Assembly: GCF_900167465.1 (NCBI RefSeq) | Contig: NZ_FUWR01000004.1 | Span: 1-64,000 of the forward strand | Direction of reading: 5' to 3' | Length of the DNA: 64,000 nt | From: Trichlorobacter thiogenes | GTDB taxonomy: Bacteria > Desulfobacterota > Desulfuromonadia > Geobacterales > Pseudopelobacteraceae | Notes under the pieces: model-generated | The model's database searches: none | What the model was told of the DNA's origin: nothing | What the model saw: the letters and a program-made list of their open reading frames with translations, nothing else | In this document: positions 8,406-21,034 of the stretch, piece by piece | Numbering within the stretch: position 1 is the stretch's first letter | Layout of the letters: each line of letters opens with the position of its first letter | Translations under genes and position numbers: made by a program

Positions 8406-8476
8406 CTTGATGGCTTCTTGACAGCCTTGCTTCAGGTTTTGACACCAATTTGATTGCCCGGTTGCTACGCTTTGAT
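8406..8476 (+). promoter_or_regulatory. direct-repeat operator and promoter of the kdp operon
   Basis: CTTGAT (8406), CTTGAC (8417), a weaker CTTGCT (about 8426), TTTGAC (8438) and TTTGAT (8449) recur at about one helical turn, with another TTTGAT at 8471. The TTGATT ending at 8455 is followed after 10 bases by TACGCT (8466-8471), a plausible -10. There is no good -35, as in PhoB-type activated promoters where the activator box replaces it. The same layout precedes the KimA-like gene at 16763-16828. KdpE, an OmpR/PhoB-class regulator encoded in this operon, is the likely binder; that is inference. Confidence 0.6.
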
Positions 8477-8512
8477 CATGCAGGATCAGCGCGCACCAGG
8501 AGGTCAACCAAC

Positions 8513-8725
8513 ATGAAGGCATACCAGTTTAACGAGGCCACCGGGCTGTACGAAGGTGAAATTTTTGAAGACAGTGCTACACTTCCCTATGTGGGCGGCG
8601 TTACCACGGTTGCCCCGCCGGAGTATGGCGCCGGTCAGGTGCCGGTTTTTGATGCTGCAGCTCAACAGTGGGAGTTACTGCCAGTAGCCATTGTCCGTCA
8701 ACTGATATTGGGGAGAAACCAATGA
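8513..8725 (+). CDS. small hypothetical protein, first gene of the kdp operon
   Basis: ATG at 8513 follows a strong AGGAGG site, and the 70-codon frame ends in a TGA that overlaps the kdpA ATG (ATGA at 8722-8725). The protein is soluble and begins [20 protein letters not shown], then has [17 protein letters not shown] and a WELLP segment. Its YxFNxxTGxY opening loosely recalls short phage tail-fibre-assembly-type domains. It sits where many bacteria encode the membrane peptide KdpF but has no membrane segment, so it is not KdpF. Position, ribosome site and overlap argue it is translated with kdpA. Confidence 0.7.
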
Positions 8726-10503
8726 GTCAGACTCTGCTTGAACTGGTGCAGGTGCTGTTCCTGCTGGTGGTCCTGTTGGCACTGGTTAAACCGCTGGGCG
8801 GTTTTATGGCCAGGGTCTATCAGGGGGAGCGTACCTTTCTGACGCCGTTGCTGGCCCCGGTTGAAGGTCTGCTCTACCGGATCAGCGGGGTGCAACCGGA
8901 TGATGAAATGGGCTGGAAACGTTATGCCTGGTCCATGCTGCTGTTTAATCTGGTGCTGTTTTCAGGGCTGTTTGCCCTGCTGTTAACCCAGCATCTGCTG
9001 CCGCTGAACCCGCAAAAACTACCACCCTTTTCCTGGCAACTGGCCCTGAATACCGCCATCAGTTTCACCACCAATACCAATTGGCAAAATTATTCCGGCG
9101 AACAGGCCGCCAGCTATCTGACCCAGATGGCAGGCTTTGGTCTGCATAACTTTGCCTCTGCCGCCACCGGCATGGCGATTGTGATTGCGCTGATCCGTGG
9201 ATTCAGCCGCCGCAAGAGCTCTGCCATCGGTAATTTCTGGGTGGATCTGACCCGTGGCACGCTCTACATCCTGTTGCCGATCTCGATCATCGCTGCCCTG
9301 TTGCTGGTCTCCCTGGGGGTGATCCAGAACTTCTCCCCCTATAAAACCGTACCTTTGGTACAGTCGGTCAGCTATGACAAGCCCAAGCTGGACGACAAGG
9401 GGGCTCAGCTCAAGGATGCCAAGGGCAATCCGGTTACGGAGAACGTAATTGCCAAAGAGGCTACCATTCCGATGGGGCCTGTTGCTTCACAGGAGGCGAT
9501 CAAAGAGCTGGGCACCAATGGTGGCGGTTTCTTTAACGCCAATTCAGCCCATCCCTTTGAGAACCCCACCCCACTGACCAACTTCGTGGAGATCCTGCTG
9601 ATCCTATTGATACCTGCCTCGTTGACCTACACCTTTGGTCTGATGGTGGGCAATACCCGTCAGGGCTGGATGCTGCTGGGGGTAATGATCTTACTATGGT
9701 TGCTCTGCTTTGGTGTGCTGCAGGGGGTTGAGCAGGCGGGCAACCCGTTGGTGGCCAAGCTGGGGGTAAGTGGCGGCAACCTTGAAGGGAAGGAAACCCG
9801 CTTTGGTATGGTTGCCAGCAACCTGTTTACCGTGACCACCACCGCTACCTCATGCGGCGCAGTCAATAGTATGCACGATTCCCTGACCCCGATCGGTGGC
9901 ATGATCCCGCTCTCACTGATCCTGCTGGGGGAGATCGTCTTCGGCGGGGTCGGTTCCGGGCTCTACACCATGCTGGCCTTTGCCATAATCGCCGTCTTTG
10001 TCTCCGGCCTGATGATCGGACGTACCCCGGAGTATCTGGGCAAGAAGATTGAGGTGCAGGAGATGTGGATGTCGATCATCACCATCCTGACCGCCGGTGT
10101 GGTGGTGCTGATCCTGTCCGGTCTGGCCATGATAACCCCTTCTGCGGTGGCCTCCATGAGCAATCCCGGCACCCACGGCTTGTCAGAGGTGCTGTATGCC
10201 GTGGCCTCCATGGCCAACAACAACGGCAGCGCCTTTGCTGGTCTGAATGGCAACGTACCGTTCTATAACCTGCTGGGCGGGTTGGCCATGACCATTGGTC
10301 GCTATATCCCGGCAGTGGCTGTGTTGGCCATGGCTGGTTCCCTGGCAGAGAAGAAGTACATTCCCCCCAGCCTGGGTACCCTGCCCACTGACAAGCTGCC
10401 GTTTGCGGTTTGGCTGACCCTGGTGATCCTGATCGTCGGTGCTTTAACCTTTTTCCCGGCACTGGCGCTGGGGCCGATAGTGGAACATCTGACCATGCGG
10501 TAA
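8722..10503 (+). CDS. kdpA: K+-transporting ATPase subunit KdpA
   Basis: The 593-residue, roughly ten-helix subunit forms the K+ selectivity filter of the high-affinity KdpFABC pump in the inner membrane. Family landmarks include [54 protein letters not shown] and [15 protein letters not shown] 8722 was chosen because GGGGAGA precedes it and it overlaps the stop of the preceding small gene; an extension to 8668 would overlap that gene in another frame. kdpB follows after 47 bases. Confidence 0.97.
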
Positions 10504-10550
10504 GCCTGATAGGTACTGGGCCTAACTAAGCCCCTTCTGGAGAGACAACA

Positions 10551-12617
10551 ATGTCCAAACATACCCAACAGCCGCAATCGGCCTTTGATACAGCACTACT
10601 GCAGGGGGCACTGCTGGAGTCCCTGAAAAAACTTGATCCCCGCCAGCTCTGGCGCAACCCGGTTATGCTTTGCGTTGAGATTGCCAGTCTGATAACCCTG
10701 GTTACCTTTGTCCTGTCACTTTCTGGGGCTAACAAGGAACCGGCCTGGTTTACCGGCGCAGTCTCAGCCTGGCTCTGGCTGACCGTGATCTTCTCCACCT
10801 TTGCCGAGGCACTGGCCGAAGGGCGGGGCAAGGCACGGGCCGCCTCCCTGCGTTCATCCCGGACCAACGTAACTGCCAAGCTGCTTGCCAAACCAGATTT
10901 TAACAGCGCCTTTACCACGGTTGGCGCCAGTCAGCTTCGCAAGGGGGATTGCATCCTGGTGGCTGCTGGCGAGATGATCGCCGGTGACGGTGATGTGCTT
11001 GCAGGCGCAGCCCTGGTCAATGAATCGGCCGTAACCGGTGAATCAGCCCCGGTGATCCGTGAGTCTGGCGGCGACCGCAGCGCGGTGACCGGCGGTACCA
11101 GCGTGATCGCCAACAGCATTATCGTGCGGATTACAGCCAATCCCGGCGAGACCTTTCTGGACCGGATGATCGGCCTGATTGAAGGGGCCAAGCGTCGTAA
11201 GACCCCCAACGAAGTGGCCCTGGAGGTGTTGCTGATCGCCCTGACCGTGGTCTTTCTGCTGGTCTGCGCCAATATTGCGCCGCTCTCCAGCTACAGTGTT
11301 AAGGCAGCCGGGCAGGGTACGCCGGTCTCTTTGACCATCCTGACCGCCCTGTTTGTCTGTCTGGCCCCCACCACCATCGCCGCCCTGCTGCCTGCCATCG
11401 GCATTGCCGGTATGGACCGCCTGTTCCAAAAAAACGTGATCGCCCTGTCGGGTCGGGCCATTGAGGCGGCCGGTGATGTCAATGTGCTGTTGCTGGACAA
11501 GACCGGCACCATCACCCACGGCAACCGTGAGGCAACCGCCTTTGTCCCGGTGGGTGGCCACAGTGAGCAGGAACTGGCCGAGGCTGCCCTGATGGCATCC
11601 CTGGCTGATGAGACCCCGGAGGGACGCAGCGTGGTTCTGTTGGCAAAGCAGAACAACGGACTGGTCAGGGAGACCCCCAAGGATGCCGAAGTGGTTGAGT
11701 TCAGCGCAGATACCCGTCTCTCCGGCATTAATCTGGCTGGACATCAGTACCGTAAAGGGGCATCCGACTCCACCATCGCCTTTGTCAAAGGGCTGGGTGC
11801 AACCAGCATCCCCCCTGAATTGGCTGATCTGGTGGACAGGATTGCCCGGGCCGGAGCCACGCCGCTGGTGGTAAGCCGTGACAACGAGATCATGGGGGTG
11901 ATCAACCTGAAGGATATTGTCAAGGCCGGTATCCAGGAGCGTTTCCTGCAACTGCGCTCCATGGGGATCAAGACCGTGATGATTACCGGTGATAACCCGC
12001 TGACTGCAGCGGCCATTGCCGCCGAGGCCCAGGTGGATGATTTTCTGGCCCAGGCCAAGCCGGAGGAAAAGCTGCGTCTGATCAAGGAGTACCAGGAACA
12101 GGGGTATATGGTGGCCATGACCGGCGATGGCACCAACGATGCCCCGGCACTGGCCCAGGCTGATGTTGCGGTGGCCATGAACACCGGCACCCAACCGGCC
12201 CGAGAGGCTGCCAATATCATTGATCTGGACTCCAACCCCACCAAGCTGCTGGATATCGTGGAGGTGGGCAAGCAGATCCTGATGACCCGTGGCAACCTGA
12301 CCACCTTCAGCATCTCCAACGACATTGCCAAGTATTTTGCCATCATCCCGGCCGCTCTGCTCTCAATCTATCCCCAACTTGGGGTGCTGAATCTGATGGG
12401 GCTGGCCAGCCCCTACAGTGCCATCCTTTCAGCGGTAATCTTCAATGCCATCATCATCCCGATGCTGGTGCCGCTGGCCCTGAAGGGGACGAAATTCCGT
12501 GCCATGCCTGCTGAAAAGCTGCTGATCCATAACCTGCTGATTTATGGGTTGGGCGGCATCATCGCGCCGTTTGCGGGGATCAAGGCGATTGATATGCTGA
12601 TCGCGGTCTTTGTTTAG
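10551..12617 (+). CDS. kdpB: K+-transporting ATPase ATP-binding subunit KdpB
   Basis: The 688-residue P-type ATPase subunit energises K+ uptake by KdpFABC. It has the actuator-loop TGES (VTGESAPV), the phosphorylation motif DKTGTITHG with the acceptor Asp at about residue 316, and the hinge motif [21 protein letters not shown]. The hydrophobic segments match the family. It ends 167 bases before kdpC, an unusually long gap for a kdp operon; that gap is filled by an inverted repeat (12631-12760). Confidence 0.97.
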
Positions 12618-12630
12618 AAGTAAAGGCGAT

Positions 12631-12760
12631 AGCACGCGGATAACGCTGATTGGGCGGATATCCGCAGATAAAGTCAACTGATTCAAGTCTTAAAACAAAA
12701 TCAAAGTTTTTAAAGCTTTAAATCCGTGCTAATCCGCTCAATCCGTGTCATCAGCGTGCC
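12631..12760. repeat. inverted-repeat element inserted between kdpB and kdpC
   Basis: The left arm (12631-12672, starting AGCACGCGGATAACGCTGAT) and the right arm (12718-12760) are imperfect inverted copies about 42 bases long around an AT-rich centre. They share GCACGC, GATTG and GCGGAT blocks. The short GGAT/ATCCG-rich units resemble scattered intergenic repeats of many proteobacteria. The element has no coding capacity. It could fold into a long hairpin in the kdp mRNA and weaken expression of the downstream genes, which is inference. Confidence 0.7.
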
Positions 12761-12784
12761 ATTAAAGGTTTTAGGAGCCAAACC

Positions 12785-13354
12785 ATGAAGGATATAAAAC
12801 CAGCCATCCTGCTGTTCATCGTATTCACCGTCATCTGCGGCGGCATCTATCCGGCCCTGGTGACCAGCATAGCCCACGCCCTGTTCCCCGACCAGTCCAA
12901 GGGCAGCTTCATCCATGATAAATACGGCAAAGAGATCGGCTCCTCCCTGATCGGTCAGCCGTTCTCTGATCTCAAATACCTCTGGCCCCGTCCCTCTGCC
13001 ACGGCAGAGTTTGGCTATAATTCTTCTGCATCCGGTGGTTCCAATAGCGGTCCCACCAACCCGGATTATCTGAAGACCGTGGCAGAACGGGTCAAGGCGC
13101 TGCGGGACAGCGGCATCACCGGCCCGATCCCGGCTGAACTGGTACAGGCCTCGGCAAGTGGACTTGATCCTCACCTTTCACCACAGGTAGCCAGGCTGCA
13201 AGTGCCACGGATCGCCAAGGCCCGTGGCATACCGGAGACCATGGTGCAGAAGCAGATAGATGCCGCTACAGAACAACCGCAACTGGGGATATTAGGCGCA
13301 GCGCGGGTAAACGTGCTTGCGGTGAATCTGAAATTAGATACACTAACTCCATGA
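12785..13354 (+). CDS. kdpC: K+-transporting ATPase subunit KdpC
   Basis: A 189-residue protein with one N-terminal membrane helix (ILLFIVFTVICGGIYPALVT) and a periplasmic domain carrying GSSLIGQPF, WPRPSAT and the late LDPHLSPQVARLQVPRIAKARG typical of KdpC. It assembles with KdpA and KdpB and increases ATP affinity. The ATG follows AGGAGCC. Its TGA overlaps the kdpD ATG by four bases, so pump and sensor genes are translationally coupled. Confidence 0.95.
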   Translation: MKDIKPAILLFIVFTVICGGIYPALVTSIAHALFPDQSKGSFIHDKYGKEIGSSLIGQPFSDLKYLWPRPSATAEFGYNSSASGGSNSGPTNPDYLKTVAERVKALRDSGITGPIPAELVQASASGLDPHLSPQVARLQVPRIAKARGIPETMVQKQIDAATEQPQLGILGAARVNVLAVNLKLDTLTP

Positions 13355-16044
13355 CCAACCAGGACACCAACATACGCCCCACGCCAGAGGCGATGCTGAA
13401 GCTGGCCCAAGCGGAAGAGGTCCAATCCGAACAGGGCCGGCTGAAGGTGTTTCTGGGCTATGCCGCTGGCGTTGGCAAGACCTACGCCATGCTGGAGGCG
13501 GCACGCAAGCGCAAGGCAGATGGCCGTGATCTGGTGGTGGGCTATGTGGAATCCCATGGTCGCAGTGAGACCGATGCCTTGCTGGATGGGTTGGAGCTGA
13601 TCCCCCGCCGTCAGCTTTCCTATGCCGGCGTCACGCTGCCGGAGATGGATCTGGATGCCATTCTGGCCCGCAAGCCGCAGATTGTGCTGGTGGATGAGCT
13701 GGCCCACAGCAATGTGCCCGGCTCGCGCCACGAAAAGCGCTGGCAGGATGTTGAGGAACTGCTGGCGGCCGGGATAGATGTCTATACCACCGTCAATATT
13801 CAGCATTTTGAAAGCTTAAATGATGTGGTGGCTCAGATCACCGGCATCACGGTGCGGGAGACCCTGCCGGATCGGCTGCTGGATATCGCCTTTGAGATCA
13901 AGCTGATCGACCTTCCGCCGGAAGACCTGCTGCAGCGGTTGCAGGAAGGCAAGATCTATATCCCTGATCAGGCAGCCAAGGCGATTGAGAAGTTCTTTCG
14001 CCCCGGTAACCTGATGGCGCTCAGGGAGCTGTCGCTACGCCGTACCGCAGCTAGGGTGGATGACCAGATGCGGGCCTATATGGAGACCCAGTCCATTGCC
14101 GGTCCCTGGCCCACTGCAGAACGGTTGCTGGTCTGCGTCAGCGGCAGTCCCTACAGTGAGCAGTTGATCCGGGCTACCCGCAGGCTGGCCGAGGAGCTGA
14201 AGGCGCCCTGGCATACGGTCTATATTGAGACGCCGGGCAGTGATCGCCACACTCGCCAGAACCGTGAACGGGTCTGGCAGGACCTGCGTTTTGCTGAAAG
14301 CCTGGGGGCCCAGGTGGCCACCGTCACCGCCACCTCTGTGCCGGATGCGGTGGCTGAGTATGCGGCCCGCCATAACGTGACCCGCATCGTGGTGGGTAAG
14401 CCTACCCATAGCCGTTGGTATGAACTGCTGCACCCGTCGATTGTGGATCAGATCATCCGTCGCAGCAGTAGCAGTGATGTCTTTGTGGTTCGTATCAATA
14501 CTGAGGGGATAACGCCACCACTGCAAAAGGGTAGCCCTCGCGGCCATCATCTCCATCCTTGGGGATATCCTCTGGCTGCGGCTCTGGTGGCCGTTGCAAC
14601 CATTTTCTGCTGGCTGGTCAGCCGCTTCCTGGAGCCGACCAATCTGGTGATGATCTATCTGCTGGCGGTGGTGGTGGCTGCGGTCCGGCTGGGACGCAGA
14701 CCGGCCATGCTGACCGCCTTTCTGGGGGTGCTGGCCTTTGACTTTTTCTTTATCCCGCCCCACCTGACTTTTGCCGTGGCAGATACCCAGTACCTGATCA
14801 CCTTTGCCGGACTGTTTACGGTGGGGATCGTGATCAGCAACCTGGTGGCCCGTTCACGGGAACGGGCTGATGTAATCCGGGTGCGGGAGATCCAGACCGC
14901 CTCGCTCTACTACCTTAGTCGTGACCTGGCTGCGGCTGCTGATATCACCAAGGTGTTAACGTCAGTGATCAGAAATGTAGAGGAGGCGCTAAACGCCAAG
15001 GCAGTCATTTTTTTGCCGGAGGGAGAGCGGCTGGAGATGCTGACGGCCAGCGATGGGCTGATTCTGGATAGCAAGGAACAGGCGGTGGCGGACTGGGCCT
15101 TCCGTAACCGGCATCCGGCCGGACGTGGCACTGATACCCTGATCTCGGCAGAGTTGATTTATCTGCCGCTGCAGACACCGGCCAGCCAGCTGGGGGTGCT
15201 GGGGGTACGGATGGAAGATGAATATGACTACCGTTCGCAGGAGAGCCGCCGTCTGCTGGATGCCTTTGCCACCCAGGCGGCCATGGCCATCGAGCGGGTT
15301 CAGTTTTCCCATCAGGCTGAACAGGCCCAGATCCTCCAGGCCCGTGAGAATCTGGAGCGCGCCCTGTTGAACTCCATCTCCCATGACCTGCGTACTCCGC
15401 TGGTCTCCGTAACCGGCGTACTTTCCAGTCTGCGTGATGAGGGGATGCATCTGAGCGATCAGGCCCGTCGTGAACTACTGGATACCGCCTGCGGCGAGGC
15501 AGAACGGTTGAATCGCTTTGTGGGCAACCTGCTGGATATGACCCGGATTGAGGCCGGAGCCATCAGACTGAATCTGGAGCTGTGCGATATTCAGGATCTG
15601 GTGGGCTGTGCCATGGCGGCCATCAAGCCTCGTGTCGGGAGTTATCTGATAACGATCAGCCTTCCCGATGACCTGCCCATGGTTTTTATGGATCAGGTGT
15701 TGATGACCCAGGTGCTGGTGAATCTGCTTGATAATTCGCTGAAGTATTCCTTGCCGGAGCGTGCTATTGAAATCAGCTCCCATCAGGAACATGGCTGGCT
15801 GGTGCTGGAGGTCGCCGACCATGGTCCCGGTGTGCCGGAGCAGGATCTGAAACGGGTCTTTGACAAGTTTTACCGGATTCCGGTTCCTGAAGGGGTTAGT
15901 GGCACCGGTCTGGGGCTTTCCATCTGCAAAGGGATTGTTGAGGCCCACGGTGGGACTATAAGGGCTGAAAACCGTGCCGACGGGGGGCTGGTGATAAAGA
16001 TCCGCCTGTCGCTGGCCAAAACAGGACAACAGGAAAAGGAATAG
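13351..16044 (+). CDS. kdpD: K+ sensor histidine kinase KdpD
   Basis: The 897-residue kinase has the KdpD order. An N-terminal KdpD domain carries a Walker-A-like GYAAGVGKTYAML. A UspA-like domain lies around residues 255-375, four membrane helices around 395-500, then a GAF-like part. The HisKA motif SISHDLRTPL has His about 678, and the ATPase includes DKFYRIP and GTGLGLSICKGI. The Usp domain has SGS (264-266), exactly 20 residues, then WHTVY, close to the SxS-X20-FTAxY c-di-AMP-binding motif described for Staphylococcus aureus KdpD. It senses low K+ and phosphorylates KdpE, encoded four bases downstream. Confidence 0.95.
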   Translation: MTNQDTNIRPTPEAMLKLAQAEEVQSEQGRLKVFLGYAAGVGKTYAMLEAARKRKADGRDLVVGYVESHGRSETDALLDGLELIPRRQLSYAGVTLPEMDLDAILARKPQIVLVDELAHSNVPGSRHEKRWQDVEELLAAGIDVYTTVNIQHFESLNDVVAQITGITVRETLPDRLLDIAFEIKLIDLPPEDLLQRLQEGKIYIPDQAAKAIEKFFRPGNLMALRELSLRRTAARVDDQMRAYMETQSIAGPWPTAERLLVCVSGSPYSEQLIRATRRLAEELKAPWHTVYIETPGSDRHTRQNRERVWQDLRFAESLGAQVATVTATSVPDAVAEYAARHNVTRIVVGKPTHSRWYELLHPSIVDQIIRRSSSSDVFVVRINTEGITPPLQKGSPRGHHLHPWGYPLAAALVAVATIFCWLVSRFLEPTNLVMIYLLAVVVAAVRLGRRPAMLTAFLGVLAFDFFFIPPHLTFAVADTQYLITFAGLFTVGIVISNLVARSRERADVIRVREIQTASLYYLSRDLAAAADITKVLTSVIRNVEEALNAKAVIFLPEGERLEMLTASDGLILDSKEQAVADWAFRNRHPAGRGTDTLISAELIYLPLQTPASQLGVLGVRMEDEYDYRSQESRRLLDAFATQAAMAIERVQFSHQAEQAQILQARENLERALLNSISHDLRTPLVSVTGVLSSLRDEGMHLSDQARRELLDTACGEAERLNRFVGNLLDMTRIEAGAIRLNLELCDIQDLVGCAMAAIKPRVGSYLITISLPDDLPMVFMDQVLMTQVLVNLLDNSLKYSLPERAIEISSHQEHGWLVLEVADHGPGVPEQDLKRVFDKFYRIPVPEGVSGTGLGLSICKGIVEAHGGTIRAENRADGGLVIKIRLSLAKTGQQEKE

Positions 16045-16048
16045 AGGC

Positions 16049-16747
16049 ATGATCGCTGAGAGTACGTCGGGTAACCTCCCAAGGGTTCTGATCATTGATG
16101 ATGAAGTGGCCATCCGCAAGTTTCTGCGTACGGTTCTATCCAGTGAGGAATTTTTGTTGTACGAGGCGGAGAATGCCCATACCGGCCTGTCGCTTACGGC
16201 TGCAGTCCGCCCGGATGTGATTCTGCTTGATCTCGGTTTGCCCGATCTGGATGGCTTGGAGGTGATCAAAAGGATCCGTGACTGGTCGCAGGTGCCGATC
16301 ATCGTGCTTTCGGTACGGGAGCGGGAAGAAGACAAGATTGCTGCACTGGATGCCGGGGCTGATGATTACCTGACCAAGCCGTTTGGGGTGGGAGAACTGT
16401 TGGCCCGTATCAGGGCTGCCATGCGTCGTTTGCAGCAGGAACTGCCAGAACCGGTTTTTATCAGTGATGATCTGGAGGTAAACCTGGAGCTGCGGCGGGT
16501 AATGGTTAAGGGAAAGGATGTCCAGCTTACCCCAACGGAATATGATTTGTTGAAATTGCTGGTCAGCCAGGCTGGCAAGGTGCTGACCCATCGCCATATC
16601 CTGAACAAGATCTGGGGGCCATCCCACCTGGAACAGCCCCATGTGCTGCGGGTCAATATCAGCAATCTGCGCCGTAAAATAGAACTAGATCCTGCGCAAC
16701 CTCTTCATATTACAACAGAACTTGGTGTAGGTTATCGTCTTGTCTGA
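16049..16747 (+). CDS. kdpE: response regulator KdpE
   Basis: A 232-residue OmpR/PhoB-class regulator. The receiver domain has acidic IIDDE near the start, phosphoacceptor Asp about 61 in VILLDLGLPD, and the conserved Lys in DDYLTKPFG. The C-terminal winged helix includes LTPTEYDLLKLL and HVLRVNISNLRRKIE. It is the cytoplasmic partner of KdpD and should activate the kdp operon. The CTTGAT arrays before kdp and right after this gene are the natural candidate targets. Confidence 0.95.
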   Translation: MIAESTSGNLPRVLIIDDEVAIRKFLRTVLSSEEFLLYEAENAHTGLSLTAAVRPDVILLDLGLPDLDGLEVIKRIRDWSQVPIIVLSVREREEDKIAALDAGADDYLTKPFGVGELLARIRAAMRRLQQELPEPVFISDDLEVNLELRRVMVKGKDVQLTPTEYDLLKLLVSQAGKVLTHRHILNKIWGPSHLEQPHVLRVNISNLRRKIELDPAQPLHITTELGVGYRLV

Positions 16748-16762
16748 GTCCCGGTAATCTGC

Positions 16763-16828
16763 CTTGATGCCTTCTTGATACCTCTTGATCTGATCTTGAT
16801 GCCCTCTTGATGCACAGCCTGATACGCT
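16763..16828 (+). promoter_or_regulatory. five-copy CTTGAT direct-repeat operator before the KimA-like gene
   Basis: Exact CTTGAT hexamers start at 16763, 16774, 16784, 16795 and 16806, spaced 11, 10, 11 and 11 bases, putting all on one DNA face. Ten bases after the last TTGATG comes TACGCT (16823-16828), with the same hexamer and 10-base spacing as in front of the kdp operon. This fits an activator of the OmpR/PhoB class binding tandem half-sites in place of a -35. KdpE, encoded immediately upstream, is the inferred regulator. Confidence 0.72.
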
Positions 16829-16859: not shown

Positions 16860-18842
16860 ATGGAACCAGCGGAACAACAATCAGGACAGGGATTCTTTGC
16901 CAAATGTATCCGTGCCATCTTTGGCGCTCCCAAGCATCTGAAGGATACCAACCTCTTTCACAAGATGGCGTTGATCCCGATTTTGGCCTGGGTCGGTCTG
17001 GGTGCTGACGGCCTGTCATCCTCGGCCTACGGTCCGGAAGAGGCGTTCCGCGCCCTGGGAAACCATACCTACCTGGCGGTTCTGCTGGGGCTTGCCACTG
17101 CCCTGACGGTTTTCATTATCTCCTACGCCTATTCCCGCATCATCGAGCATTTCCCCCATGGCGGCGGTGGCTACATTGTGGCTACCCATATGCTGGGTGA
17201 GAAGGCCGGGGTGGTCTCCGGCAGCGCCCTGCTGGTGGATTACGTGATGACCATCACCATCTCGATCGCCTCTTGCTGTGACGCACTGTTCAGCTATGTC
17301 CCCCAGCACTATCACCACTATAAGGTACCGGTTGCCTGTGTCCTGACCCTGCTGCTGATCATCCTTAATGTACGCGGGGTGAAGGAATCCATTACGGTTC
17401 TGGCCCCCATCTTCGCCATCTTTGTGATCAGCCACCTGATCATGCTGCTGTACGGTGTCTTTACCCACACCGAGCGGTTTGCGCCGCTGGCTGGTGATTT
17501 TTCCACCGGCATCAAGCATGACCTTTCAAGCATTGGTCTGTTTGGCATCATGCTGCTGTTTCTGCGGGCCTATTCCCTGGGTGGTGGTACCTACACCGGT
17601 ATTGAGGCGGTTTCAAACGGTCTGCAGATCATGCGTGAACCGCGGGTGCAAACCGGCAAGCGTACCATGCTCTACATGGCCACCTCACTGGCCTTCACTG
17701 CCGGGGTACTGTTCCTCTGCTATGCCCTGGTCGGCATCAAGCCGGTGGAGGGTAAGACCCTCAACGCGGTGCTGGCTGACGGACTCTTTGCAGGCTGGCC
17801 CATGGGCAGCACCATCGCCTTCATCACCATCTTCTCTGAAGGTGCGCTGCTGCTGGTGGCTGCCCAGGCCGGTTTTGTAGACGGTCCACGGGTTATGGCC
17901 AACATGGCGATTGACTCCTGGTTTCCCCACCGTTTTGCGGCGCTCTCGGTTCGGCTGACCATGCGCAACGGCATCCTGCTGATGGGGGTCGCGGCCATTG
18001 CCCTGCTGTTCTATACCGGTGGCTCAGTCTCGGCCCTGGTGGTGATGTACTCCATCAACGTCTTTGTCACCTTCTCGCTGTCACAACTGGGGATGTCAAA
18101 GTTTTTCATTCAGCGCAGAAAAGAAGACCCGCAATGGATGCGGCATCTTTCCGTCCACCTGGTGGGGCTGGTGCTGTGTGTGACCATCCTGGCGGTCACC
18201 GTCTTTGAAAAATTCACCGAAGGGGGCTGGATGACGCTTCTGATTACCTCGGTGGTAATCGTGCTTTGCTATCTGATCAAGGGGCACTACAAACGGGTAC
18301 GGCTCGGTATGGCCGATCTGGACCAGAGCCTGCTGGATGTGCCGGTCAGCGCTCATGGTGAACCGCCTGCCATCGATCACAATGCCGCTACTGCCATTCA
18401 GCTGGTTTCCGGTTACAGCGGATTTGGTGTGCATACGCTCTTTTCCATCCTTTCCACCTTTCCCAAGACCTATAAAAACGTGATCTTCGTTTCAGTGGCC
18501 ATGATCGATTCCGGCAGCTTTAAAGGCGCCGAAGAGATTGAGGCGCTGGAGCAATCAGTCCGGTTCGGACTGGAACAGTATGTAAACCTTGCCCGCAAAC
18601 TGGGCTTTGCCGCCGACTACCGTATGGCCGTGGGAACCGACGTGGTGGAGGGAGCTACGACGCTCTGTCAACAGATTGCCGGAGAGTTTCCCCGCTCAAC
18701 GGTCTTTACCGGACAGCTCACCTTCCGTTTGGAGAAGTTCTACCATCGCCTGCTGCACAACGAGACGGCCTTCGCCATCCAGCGCCGCCTGCAGTGGGAC
18801 GGCCTGACCACCGTTATTTTGCCGATCAGGGTGCGTACCTAG
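16860..18842 (+). CDS. KimA-like potassium transporter (APC/KUP superfamily)
   Basis: A 660-residue membrane protein with about twelve helices and a C-terminal cytoplasmic domain (from about 500). It reads like an amino-acid permease but carries the KimA (YdaO) K+ site: GADGLSSSAYGPE with Asp50 and Tyr57 seven apart (KimA Asp36/Tyr43), LLVDYVMT with Asp127-Tyr128 (KimA Asp117 region) and GGGTYTGIEA. KimA is a proton-coupled K+ importer inhibited by c-di-AMP in Bacillus subtilis. The location between kdpE and kup and the shared operator support a K+ role. A substrate other than K+ cannot be excluded. Confidence 0.75.
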   Translation: MEPAEQQSGQGFFAKCIRAIFGAPKHLKDTNLFHKMALIPILAWVGLGADGLSSSAYGPEEAFRALGNHTYLAVLLGLATALTVFIISYAYSRIIEHFPHGGGGYIVATHMLGEKAGVVSGSALLVDYVMTITISIASCCDALFSYVPQHYHHYKVPVACVLTLLLIILNVRGVKESITVLAPIFAIFVISHLIMLLYGVFTHTERFAPLAGDFSTGIKHDLSSIGLFGIMLLFLRAYSLGGGTYTGIEAVSNGLQIMREPRVQTGKRTMLYMATSLAFTAGVLFLCYALVGIKPVEGKTLNAVLADGLFAGWPMGSTIAFITIFSEGALLLVAAQAGFVDGPRVMANMAIDSWFPHRFAALSVRLTMRNGILLMGVAAIALLFYTGGSVSALVVMYSINVFVTFSLSQLGMSKFFIQRRKEDPQWMRHLSVHLVGLVLCVTILAVTVFEKFTEGGWMTLLITSVVIVLCYLIKGHYKRVRLGMADLDQSLLDVPVSAHGEPPAIDHNAATAIQLVSGYSGFGVHTLFSILSTFPKTYKNVIFVSVAMIDSGSFKGAEEIEALEQSVRFGLEQYVNLARKLGFAADYRMAVGTDVVEGATTLCQQIAGEFPRSTVFTGQLTFRLEKFYHRLLHNETAFAIQRRLQWDGLTTVILPIRVRT

Positions 18843-18984: not shown

Positions 18985-19140
18985 CCACAGAAGACAGCAG
19001 CCGAGATTCATCGCGATAAAGGCCGATGGATGCGGGGGACCCGATCAGTTGGGGCGTATTCCAGCGCAAGCTGGTTAGAGGACTTTCAACCTCAAGCCCG
19101 TCAGCTAACCTCGTAGGCATTTGAAGGGGCATCGGACAGG
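18985..19140 (+). ncRNA. c-di-AMP riboswitch (ydaO/yuaA type)
   Basis: The kup leader contains the conserved blocks of the ydaO motif: GGGGGACCCGAT then GTTGGGGCG (19034-19056), and TCAGCTAACCTCGTAGGC followed by GAAGGGGC (19101-19130). CCGATG (19023-19028) and CATCGG (19130-19135) can form a closing stem. ydaO riboswitches bind c-di-AMP and usually switch off K+ transporter genes. A hairpin with a T-run follows at 19146-19175, giving a transcription-termination OFF mechanism. The exact 5' boundary is estimated. Confidence 0.85.
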
Positions 19141-19213: not shown

Positions 19214-21034
19214 ATGCAACAACATGACGCTGAAAGCTTCTGGGGTGGTGTCATAAAGTCCATGGGATTGGTGTTTGGCGATATCGGCACCAGCCCGATC
19301 TATACCCTGACGGTTATCTTTGCCATTACTAAACCGACCCCGGACAACATCTTCGGAATCGTCTCCCTGATTTTCTGGACCCTGGTAATTTTGGTGCACC
19401 TGGAATACTCGATCCTTGCCATGTCCCTCTCCCGTAAAGGTGAGGGGGGGACTATCGTGCTGAAGGAGATCCTGACCCGGATGCTGCAGCCGGGTAAAGG
19501 TTTGGCTCTGATCGGCATTCTTTCCTTTCTGGGTGTGGCGCTTTTGCTGGGTGACGGGGTGATTACGCCTGCCATCTCGATCCTCTCAGCCGTGGAGGGG
19601 ATGGTGCTGATCCCCGGCCTGGAGGCAACCAAACAGGGGGTGCTGATCCTGATCGCCGCCATCATTGCGGTGGGGTTATTCATCTTTCAGGACAAGGGCA
19701 CTGACAAGGTGGCCAAGGCCTTTGGGCCGATCATGATCCTTTGGTTTGGGGCGTTGACGGTCTCCGGTCTGATCGCCATTGCTTCCCATCCTGGTATTCT
19801 CAAGGCCTTAAGCCCTCACTATGCCATCAATTTTTTAATGCATCACGGTCTTGCCGGATTTTTTGTACTATCCGAGGTGATTCTGTGCGCCACCGGTGGT
19901 GAGGCACTGTATGCCGACATGGGGCATTTAGGACGCAAGCCGATCCGCCATGCCTGGTACTTTGTGTTTGTCGCTCTGGTGATCAATTATCTGGGGCAGG
20001 GCGCATATCTTCTGAATAATCCTGAGGCCAAGAACATCCTGTTCAGTATGGTCAAGTGGCAGGCTCCCCTGCTGTATATCCCGTTTTTGATCCTGACCAT
20101 TACTGCTACGGTGATCGCCTCCCAAGCCTTGATCAGTGGCGTTTTTTCCATTGTCTATCAGGGGATCACCACCCGTATCCTGCCGCTTCTGAAGGTTGAT
20201 TACACCTCAACCCACCTCAAGTCCCAGATCTATATCGGTTCGGTCAACTGGCTGCTGCTGGGGCTGGTGATCATGATCATGCTGGTGTTCCAGAAATCTG
20301 AACATCTGGCTGCGGCTTACGGCCTGGCGGTGACCGGTACCATGACCATCACCGGCATTATGATGGTAACCATCTTCAGCAGGACCCAAAAAAAGTGGAA
20401 GGTGCCGCTGGCCCTGTTTGTGACGTTGATGGATCTGGTTTTTCTGGTCTCCAACCTCTACAAACTGCCCCACGGCGGCTACTGGTCCCTGATCCTGGCC
20501 TCAGTGCCGCTGATTACCATTCTGGTCTGGACCAAGGGACAGCGGGCGCTCTATCTGGCTCTGCGTCCCTTGGAACTGGACACCTTTCAGCTGGCCTATG
20601 AGCAGATCTATAGCAAGGGCAGGAATATCCCTGGTACCGGTCTGTTCTTTGTCAAGGAATACAACGTGGTGCCCCCCTACGTGGTGCATTGCATTATCCG
20701 CAGCAACATCATCTATGAGCGTAACGTCTTTATCTCCATCGTGCGGACCGATGAACCCTACGGCCTGCAAAGCGAGCTGAAGACCGGCATTGCCCAAGGT
20801 CTGGATGCCTTTGAGATTCATGCTGGGTATATGGAGCATATTGCCATTGAGGAGCTGTTGCACCAGAACGGGGTGCAGGAAAAGGTTATCTTCTACGGTA
20901 TTGAGGATATTGCCACTAATAACCTGATCTGGAGGTTCTTCTCGGTGATCAAGCGGCTGACCCCCAACTTTGTGCAGTTTAACAAACTGCCGGCGGCGAA
21001 ATTACAGGGGGTCGTAACAAGGGTGGAGATGTAG
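19214..21034 (+). CDS. kup: low-affinity K+ uptake protein Kup
   Basis: A 606-residue protein with about twelve membrane helices and a hydrophilic C-terminal domain. It shows Kup signatures: MGLVFGDIGTSPIYTL at the first helix, GEGGTIVLKEI, LLGDGVITPAISILSA, and GGEALYADMGHLGRKPIR. It imports K+ with protons across the inner membrane. The ATG follows AAAGGGGC. It is preceded by a c-di-AMP riboswitch and followed by a strong terminator, so it is a single-gene transcript next to the KdpE-linked genes. Confidence 0.96.
   Translation: MQQHDAESFWGGVIKSMGLVFGDIGTSPIYTLTVIFAITKPTPDNIFGIVSLIFWTLVILVHLEYSILAMSLSRKGEGGTIVLKEILTRMLQPGKGLALIGILSFLGVALLLGDGVITPAISILSAVEGMVLIPGLEATKQGVLILIAAIIAVGLFIFQDKGTDKVAKAFGPIMILWFGALTVSGLIAIASHPGILKALSPHYAINFLMHHGLAGFFVLSEVILCATGGEALYADMGHLGRKPIRHAWYFVFVALVINYLGQGAYLLNNPEAKNILFSMVKWQAPLLYIPFLILTITATVIASQALISGVFSIVYQGITTRILPLLKVDYTSTHLKSQIYIGSVNWLLLGLVIMIMLVFQKSEHLAAAYGLAVTGTMTITGIMMVTIFSRTQKKWKVPLALFVTLMDLVFLVSNLYKLPHGGYWSLILASVPLITILVWTKGQRALYLALRPLELDTFQLAYEQIYSKGRNIPGTGLFFVKEYNVVPPYVVHCIIRSNIIYERNVFISIVRTDEPYGLQSELKTGIAQGLDAFEIHAGYMEHIAIEELLHQNGVQEKVIFYGIEDIATNNLIWRFFSVIKRLTPNFVQFNKLPAAKLQGVVTRVEM

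Follow-up and report, generated by a model that had tools for sequence, protein, structure and literature searches.

What controls the potassium uptake genes of Trichlorobacter thiogenes? In a window of 64,000 nucleotides (the whole stretch analysed, contig NZ_FUWR01000004.1, positions 1 to 64,000, forward strand), arrays of the hexamer CTTGAT precede both the kdp operon and a gene for a protein resembling the potassium importer KimA, and kdpE, encoding the response regulator of the KdpD–KdpE two-component system, lies between them (Table 1). An initial annotation had described five exact CTTGAT copies at 10–11 base steps in front of the KimA-like gene and a degenerate version in front of kdp, with the last TTGAT(G/T) exactly 10 bases before TACGCT in both, and from this had predicted a KdpE regulon with a site unlike that of Escherichia coli. 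Our analysis indicates that each array is very probably a KdpE operator made of two tandem dimer sites, activating a promoter without a well-placed −35 element, and that its site would be of a known kind, not unlike the E. coli one.

Geometry of the two arrays

All five copies ahead of the KimA-like gene were located, in steps of 11, 10, 11 and 11 bases, as was the degenerate version ahead of the kdp operon, where the copies between 8406 and 8454 read CTTGAT, CTTGAC, CTTGCT, TTTGAC and TTTGAT and are followed by a further TTTGAT at 8471. The gap of exactly 10 bases between TTGAT(G/T) and TACGCT was confirmed for both promoters, and in both TACGCT starts at +60 from the first copy. The geometry common to the two promoters and to those of relatives consists of four YTTKAY hexamers (here CTTGAY or TTTGAY) at offsets 0/11/32/43. 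The middle copies, at 16784 and 8426, and the copy at 8471 lie outside the family consensus, and five-copy periodicity was therefore rejected as an essential feature; the middle copy at 16784 is also present in one sister genome (G070). Written as the four-site pattern CTTGAY-N5-CTTGAY-N16-TTGAY-N6-TTKAY, with up to two mismatches allowed, the layout occurs twice in the 3.57-Mb genome of this organism, mismatch-free at each of the two window loci, and the control gave no match; a three-copy pattern with up to two mismatches gave one match and its control none. The window arrays are real and far beyond chance.

Conservation of the array among relatives

The arrays recur in the orthologous promoters of relatives, where the initial annotation had proposed that they be sought. 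The family set comprised 76 genomes, called Geobacteraceae by inference. Upstream stretches in fetched loci were scored for four half-sites at 0/11/32/43, omitting those shorter than 100 bases and applying a cut-off of 36 that was chosen after the shuffle maxima (at most 33.2) were known. The layout was found upstream of 40 of 44 kdpA genes, 28 of 30 kimA genes and 6 of 14 kup genes, the kup upstreams being those that chanced to lie in fetched loci. A TAnnnT sequence stands exactly at +60 in all 40 of the array-bearing kdpA upstreams, 24 of the 28 for kimA and four of the six for kup, and at any other offset from 50 to 69 in at most four, one and one of them, respectively. The kdpA family consensus reads CTTGAT-N5-cTTGAC-N15-TTTGAC-ACC..-aTTTAT-N11-TAcCcT. 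Two of the four kdpA upstreams without an array are cut by contig ends (L076 and L079, the latter still showing the proximal pair) and two belong to other copies or genomes (L122, L126); the two kimA misses have a cyclic di-AMP (c-di-AMP) riboswitch (L099) and an array with spacing 11/20/11 (L112).

When whole family genomes were searched with up to two mismatches, the four-site pattern was found at 108 places in 54 of the 76 genomes and the reversed pattern at one. Thirty of the 108 places were fetched. At 26 of them a gene related to one of the window's potassium genes begins on the same strand no more than 700 bp downstream; the remaining four comprise two that reach a contig end (L158, L167), one that looks like chance (L157) and one before an ABC transporter (L168). 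Array and kdpE also co-occur: 50 genomes have both, 16 neither, six kdpE only and four the array only (Fisher p = 2.2e-8).

Correspondence with published KdpE sites

Statements on the papers cited below by accession refer to the sections of them covered here. The E. coli KdpE site consists of the half-sites TTTATA and TTTACA with a 5-bp spacer, and its TTTA bases are critical (Narayanan et al., 2012, PMC3264566). In the K-12 genome this site reads TTTTAT-N5-TTTTAC and begins 100 bp before kdpF (shuffle frequency 0.0027). The minimal 22-bp KdpE site of Mycobacterium smegmatis, CCGTAAAGAAACCATCAAGGCC (PMC5401905), reads CTTGAT-N5-CTTTAC on its other strand, and shuffled 22-mers reach YTTKAY-N5-YTTKAY on either strand with a frequency of 5e-5. 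The authors of that 2017 paper found their site to be without noticeable similarity to other KdpE sites, assigned a SigF-like promoter, and counted KdpE sites from only four species (PMC5401905).

In the window, 6-bp direct-repeat pairs of the YTTKAY class with a 5-bp spacer stand upstream of the kdp operon, and since half-site class and period match both the E. coli and the M. smegmatis sites, the window arrays would be operators of the KdpE kind. With the E. coli operator they share six-base direct repeats, the 5-bp spacer, a TTTA/TTGA core and the three DNA-contacting residues of the regulator: R193, R200 and T215 of E. coli KdpE (PMC3264566) are identical in the window KdpE, as judged from an alignment whose numbering offset was worked out by hand. 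They differ in that only the distal pair is described as the E. coli site, and in that position 4 is T there, not G. The M. smegmatis site for its part is, as reverse complement, one dimer site of the array, but a single dimer site is described and the opposite strand is printed (PMC5401905). The E. coli description, of one dimer site well upstream of the promoter core, does not fit the window arrays, each of which has two. The product of the window kdpE is the likely array-binding protein. The prediction of a KdpE regulon thus stands as to a potassium regulon with an OmpR/PhoB-class operator abutting the −10, likely bound by KdpE; the part that held the site to be unlike that of E. coli is rejected, because both published sites fit the same half-site rule, with the same hexamer class and 11-bp period.

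A literature search over titles and abstract openings, with subscription papers and supplements outside its scope, found no description of the four-site layout, of a KdpE rule spanning phyla or of KdpE control over KimA. The features that seem new are the arrangement of two dimer sites abutting the −10, how widely it is spread, which importer stands behind it (Kdp, KimA, Kup or Trk) and the degenerate E. coli proximal pair described below. In E. coli, kdpFABC had been called the sole KdpE target until one study added adeP, uxaA and uxaC (PMC7657598). KdpE of Sinorhizobium fredii is reported to bind the kdpFABC promoter and not the trkA or kup promoters, in the sections covered of PMC9239096, and an enlarged regulon is therefore not general. 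The main text of a Pseudomonas aeruginosa atlas made by systematic evolution of ligands by exponential enrichment contains no KdpE (PMC8041468).

Proposed mechanism and alternatives

Our computations cover the sequence and geometry of the arrays, their conservation and gene context, and their agreement with two published KdpE sites; from these results we infer KdpE binding, activation and −35 substitution at the window arrays. At low potassium KdpD would phosphorylate KdpE, and phosphorylated KdpE would fill both tandem sites head to tail. Each dimer site is taken as a YTTKAY direct repeat (here mostly CTTGAY) with an 11-bp period, and the two dimer sites start 32 bp apart; together, this offset and period would put all four half-sites on one helix face. 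The proximal dimer would occupy the −35 region, end 11 bp before the −10 and contact RNA polymerase. In the layout known from PhoB, direct repeats at 11 bp abut the −10 and replace the −35. The window promoters read in the same way, with the last repeat about 10–11 bp before the predicted −10 and no −35 at the usual spacing, and from this PhoB-like placement of the proximal dimer we take KdpE as the probable substitute for the −35. Expression of the kdp operon and kimA, and in relatives of kup or trkH–trkA, would be switched on in this way; in the window, transcription is predicted to begin just a few bases beyond 8471 and 16828.

The resemblance to PhoB can be read differently, with another OmpR/PhoB-family regulator, such as PhoB itself, binding the arrays and the proximity of kdpE being coincidental. 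The pho box is likewise bound by tandem dimers of an OmpR-family protein with an 11-bp period, ends about 10 bp before the −10 and lacks a −35, and response regulators are numerous in the genome, where the KdpE query has 119 matches. The pho box differs in its half-site, CTGTCAT (repeats quoted in PMC3333781), its regulator and its phosphate genes. Against such a regulator, the pattern with up to two mismatches occurs in this genome at the two potassium loci only, it tracks kdpE across the family genomes and potassium genes across phyla, and half-sites of this class, at this period, also make up the two KdpE sites mapped by experiment; we consider this explanation improbable. Still less probable is that half-site 3 is a plain −35 hexamer and the other copies are secondary. 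The kdpA consensus there reads TTTGACACC, which does contain TTGACA, but it lies 21 bp from the −10, a spacing too long for an ordinary sigma-70 promoter, and conservation extends to all four copies and to both 11-bp steps, with half-site 4 inside the would-be spacer. Functionless tandem-repeat expansion or chance clustering has a negligible likelihood: the five identical copies before kimA do resemble a short tandem array, and 6 of 83 sites in 80 listed loci of the blind scan described below lie, by eye, in simple-repeat DNA, but in the kdp array and those of relatives the spacers have diverged while half-sites and −10 distance stayed fixed, and the family genomes gave 108 matches against one for the reversed pattern.

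Occurrence beyond the family

A blind scan of genome contigs with the exact pattern returned at least 117 stretches with at least 120 exact sites; the counts of sites that follow hold among the matches listed. At 86 of the 120 sites a potassium gene follows on the same strand. For 81 of these the gene was recognised by tblastn and starts within 700 bp (kdpA 34, kimA 34, kup 8, kdpD 3, and kdpB and orf70, a small gene described below, one each), and Pfam added five, four with AA_permease_2, TrkA_N, KdpA or KdpD-like kinase matches (L179, L215, L218, L233) and one with TrkH (L196). By the titles of the sequence records, the potassium-linked loci fall in at least ten phyla: Desulfobacterota, Planctomycetota, Myxococcota, Chloroflexota, Actinomycetota, Bacillota, Armatimonadota, Pseudomonadota, Omnitrophota and UBP9, the last two with one linked locus each. 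For analysis of the −10, the 83 sites of the 80 listed loci were sorted by hand into family and non-family from titles and identities. Outside the family, TAnnnT, which is no part of the search pattern, stands at +60 in 12 of 33 potassium-linked sites and 6 of 23 others, and occurs once or not at all at any other offset from 50 to 69.

The KdpDE two-component system is widespread. A single rule that accommodates both the E. coli and the M. smegmatis site and leads to potassium genes in at least ten phyla would make the potassium regulon readable from sequence. It would predict KdpE control of importers of the KimA, Kup and Trk types, and it offers a testable account of KdpE activation, in which a second dimer site beside the −10 is the means.

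Evidence weighed against the proposed operator, and independent samples

A number of observations weigh against reading the arrays as two-dimer KdpE operators. The E. coli footprint protects the distal pair alone, from −72 to −50 (PMC3264566), and the M. smegmatis site is printed on the strand opposite to the repeats, so that orientation to the promoter can differ. Four family genomes have an array and no kdpE match, namely G008, G009 and G018 (66, 88 and 78% complete) and G020, whose array, a two-mismatch match, has no potassium gene near. Six others have kdpE without an array at the chosen stringency; one of these has an array with spacing 11/20/11 (L112) and two have weaker arrays (L101, L120). 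Among the matches listed in the blind scan, 34 of 120 sites face no recognised potassium gene. Three of these face related permease-like proteins (L203, L210, L244) and a fourth site (L239) faces orf70, no transporter having been recognised there. The other 30 comprise six less than 300 bp from the end of their stretch (L175, L184, L185, L224, L230, L238), six in simple repeats by eye (L186, L206 twice, L223 twice, L234), three inverted and 190–410 bp upstream of kdpA (L243, L264, L288), and 15 that face something else or nothing recognised, only part of which were scanned.

Further samples were chosen independently of the pattern. A phylum-wide KdpA sample of 26 loci came down to 19 upstreams once five loci lacking a complete kdpA frame and, among the 21 left, two belonging to the family had been set aside; only six clearly beat all 20 shuffles (L293, L295, L297, L298, L308 and L310, including two pairs each from one genus). 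Spacing in L308 and L310 is 11/20/11, and L293 and L295 have T at position 4, as in E. coli; L307, narrowly ahead at 31.7 against a shuffle value of 29.4 with spacing 12/21/11, was left out of the six. Of plasmid-borne kdpA upstreams, hand-picked (16, then six more) from 60 listed of 464 records, only seven of the first 16 beat all 30 shuffles: Mycetohabitans, Ideonella, Caballeronia, Rhizobium leguminosarum and Azospirillum and, narrowly, Sinorhizobium meliloti and Acinetobacter. Four of them have a pair-to-pair spacing of 21, two of 22 and one of 20. None of the seven keeps YTTKAY at the third hexamer: three differ from it by a single base (CTTGTC twice, CTTTTC) and the other four by more. 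In the other nine no array was seen against shuffles; in two of them, Deinococcus and Sphingobium, kdpB precedes kdpA, and the promoter may therefore lie elsewhere. A scan of the S. fredii NGR234 kdpA upstream gave no clear array. Among the six further records, Klebsiella pneumoniae, Duffyella and Klebsiella aerogenes were positive, Niallia and Enterococcus were negative and Roseateles was a marginal case (P 0.02 of 50 shuffles). The four-site layout in full is common, not universal.

The proximal pair in E. coli

Counted from the known site, the E. coli kdp promoter has TTTTGC at 32, CTTTGC at 43 and TACCCT at +60. K. aerogenes, K. pneumoniae (L340) and Enterobacter hormaechei all retain TTTTGCGAAATCTTTGC at these offsets, although they differ in the 15 and 11 bases on its flanks; at the proximal positions another K. 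pneumoniae plasmid (L334) has ATTTAC-N5-TTTTAC and Duffyella CTTTAC-N5-ATATAT. The E. coli four-site score is marginal against shuffles (P 0.04 of 50). We propose a functional proximal KdpE site in E. coli, although conservation of the pair could alternatively reflect promoter elements. It is conceivable, if slightly doubtful, that one ancestral module, with KdpE dimer sites at 0/11 and 32/43 and a −10 at +60, underlies potassium-starvation promoters across phyla, E. coli kdpFABC included; the proximal pair TTTTGC-N5-CTTTGC, in Klebsiella and Enterobacter too, would then be an overlooked functional KdpE site contacting RNA polymerase, and the module would be portable to Kdp, KimA, Kup and Trk. 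Our confidence in this was lowered by the departure of the third hexamer in all seven positive plasmid promoters.

Genes of the locus and further observations

Table 1. Features of the potassium locus and its two arrays (window coordinates).
Feature	Position	Strand	Basis
kdp array half-site 1, CTTGAT (distal dimer)	8406..8411	+	
kdp array half-site 2, CTTGAC (distal dimer)	8417..8422	+	
kdp array degenerate extra copy CTTGCT, outside family consensus	8426..8431	+	
kdp array half-site 3, TTTGAC (proximal dimer)	8438..8443	+	
kdp array half-site 4, TTTGAT (proximal dimer)	8449..8454	+	
kdp predicted −10, TACGCT, +60 from half-site 1	8466..8471	+	TAnnnT at +60 in 40/40 aligned family kdpA promoters
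orf70, open reading frame of 70 amino acids, first gene of kdp operon	8513..8725	+	conserved behind arrays
kdpA	8722..10503	+	Pfam PF03814
kdpB (P-type ATPase)	10551..12617	+	Pfam E1-E2_ATPase; position between kdpA and kdpC
kdpC	12785..13354	+	Pfam PF02669
kdpD, sensor kinase with Usp domain	13351..16044	+	Pfam PF02702 and others
kdpE, response regulator	16049..16747	+	E. coli KdpE structures 4kny/4kfc, E 1.2e-72 and 8.1e-72
kimA array half-site 1, CTTGAT	16763..16768	+	
kimA array half-site 2, CTTGAT	16774..16779	+	
kimA array extra middle copy CTTGAT	16784..16789	+	also in sister genome G070
kimA array half-site 3, CTTGAT	16795..16800	+	
kimA array half-site 4, CTTGAT	16806..16811	+	
kimA predicted −10, TACGCT, +60 from half-site 1	16823..16828	+	TAnnnT at +60 in 24/28 aligned family kimA promoters
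KimA-like potassium importer	16860..18842	+	PDB 6s3k KimA, E 6.2e-62; Pfam AA_permease_2
c-di-AMP riboswitch (RF00379) ahead of kup	18989..19134	+	
kup potassium importer	19214..21034	+	Pfam PF02705

The KimA-like protein, a predicted importer of the KUP family, resembles solved KimA (6s3k/8b70/8b71) across residues 37–484. No four-site array was scored upstream of the window kup, and the same array ahead of that gene was accordingly rejected, its place being occupied by the c-di-AMP riboswitch. Riboswitches of this class (ydaO) act, as the arrays would, on kimA and kup importers, but they exert control by c-di-AMP at the RNA level and without direct repeats. In one relative (L099) the riboswitch replaces the array ahead of kimA, as it does ahead of the window kup, and the two control layers thus look interchangeable. 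Trk importers may join the regulon: in genome G069 an array right after kdpE precedes trkH–trkA (L139:473-3431), and a planctomycete array precedes a TrkH gene (L196).

Between the kdp array and kdpA lies an unannotated gene, orf70. Fetched loci yielded 59 distinct sequences of it, among them the window's own and a few that are truncated; they sit behind the same kind of array before kdpA, kimA or kdpD, and sometimes with none of these near. The protein has no Pfam or NCBIfam match and a weak PHROG match to tail fibre assembly (4.1e-5). Its small predicted model is fairly confident (mean predicted local distance difference test score 84), and a fold search with it gave no significant match (best E 0.35). 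The product is possibly a soluble accessory in place of kdpF. Two loci (L344:2629-2677, minus strand, and L345:121-169, plus strand) have an array and then an orf70 relative, with no potassium gene of the window's types in the 2.7–2.8 kb read, which suggests that the small protein is itself a regulon member.

At two further loci (L168:1501-3049, L174:3115-5443) the gene behind the array encodes a peptidase-C39 ABC transporter and diverges from a relative of kdpD. Inverted arrays lie upstream of kdpA at L264:6959-7007, L288:4906-4954 and L243:2006-2054; the first two are actinobacterial, from Auraticoccus and Marmoricola, and agree with the strand printed for the M. smegmatis site. Arrays may, finally, mark unrecognised potassium importers. 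Behind exact arrays stand permease-like proteins with no Pfam match (L203:6527-7999, L210:3150-5072 and L244:2919-4835, the first two in Obscuribacter-type genomes), and we regard these three as candidate potassium importers.

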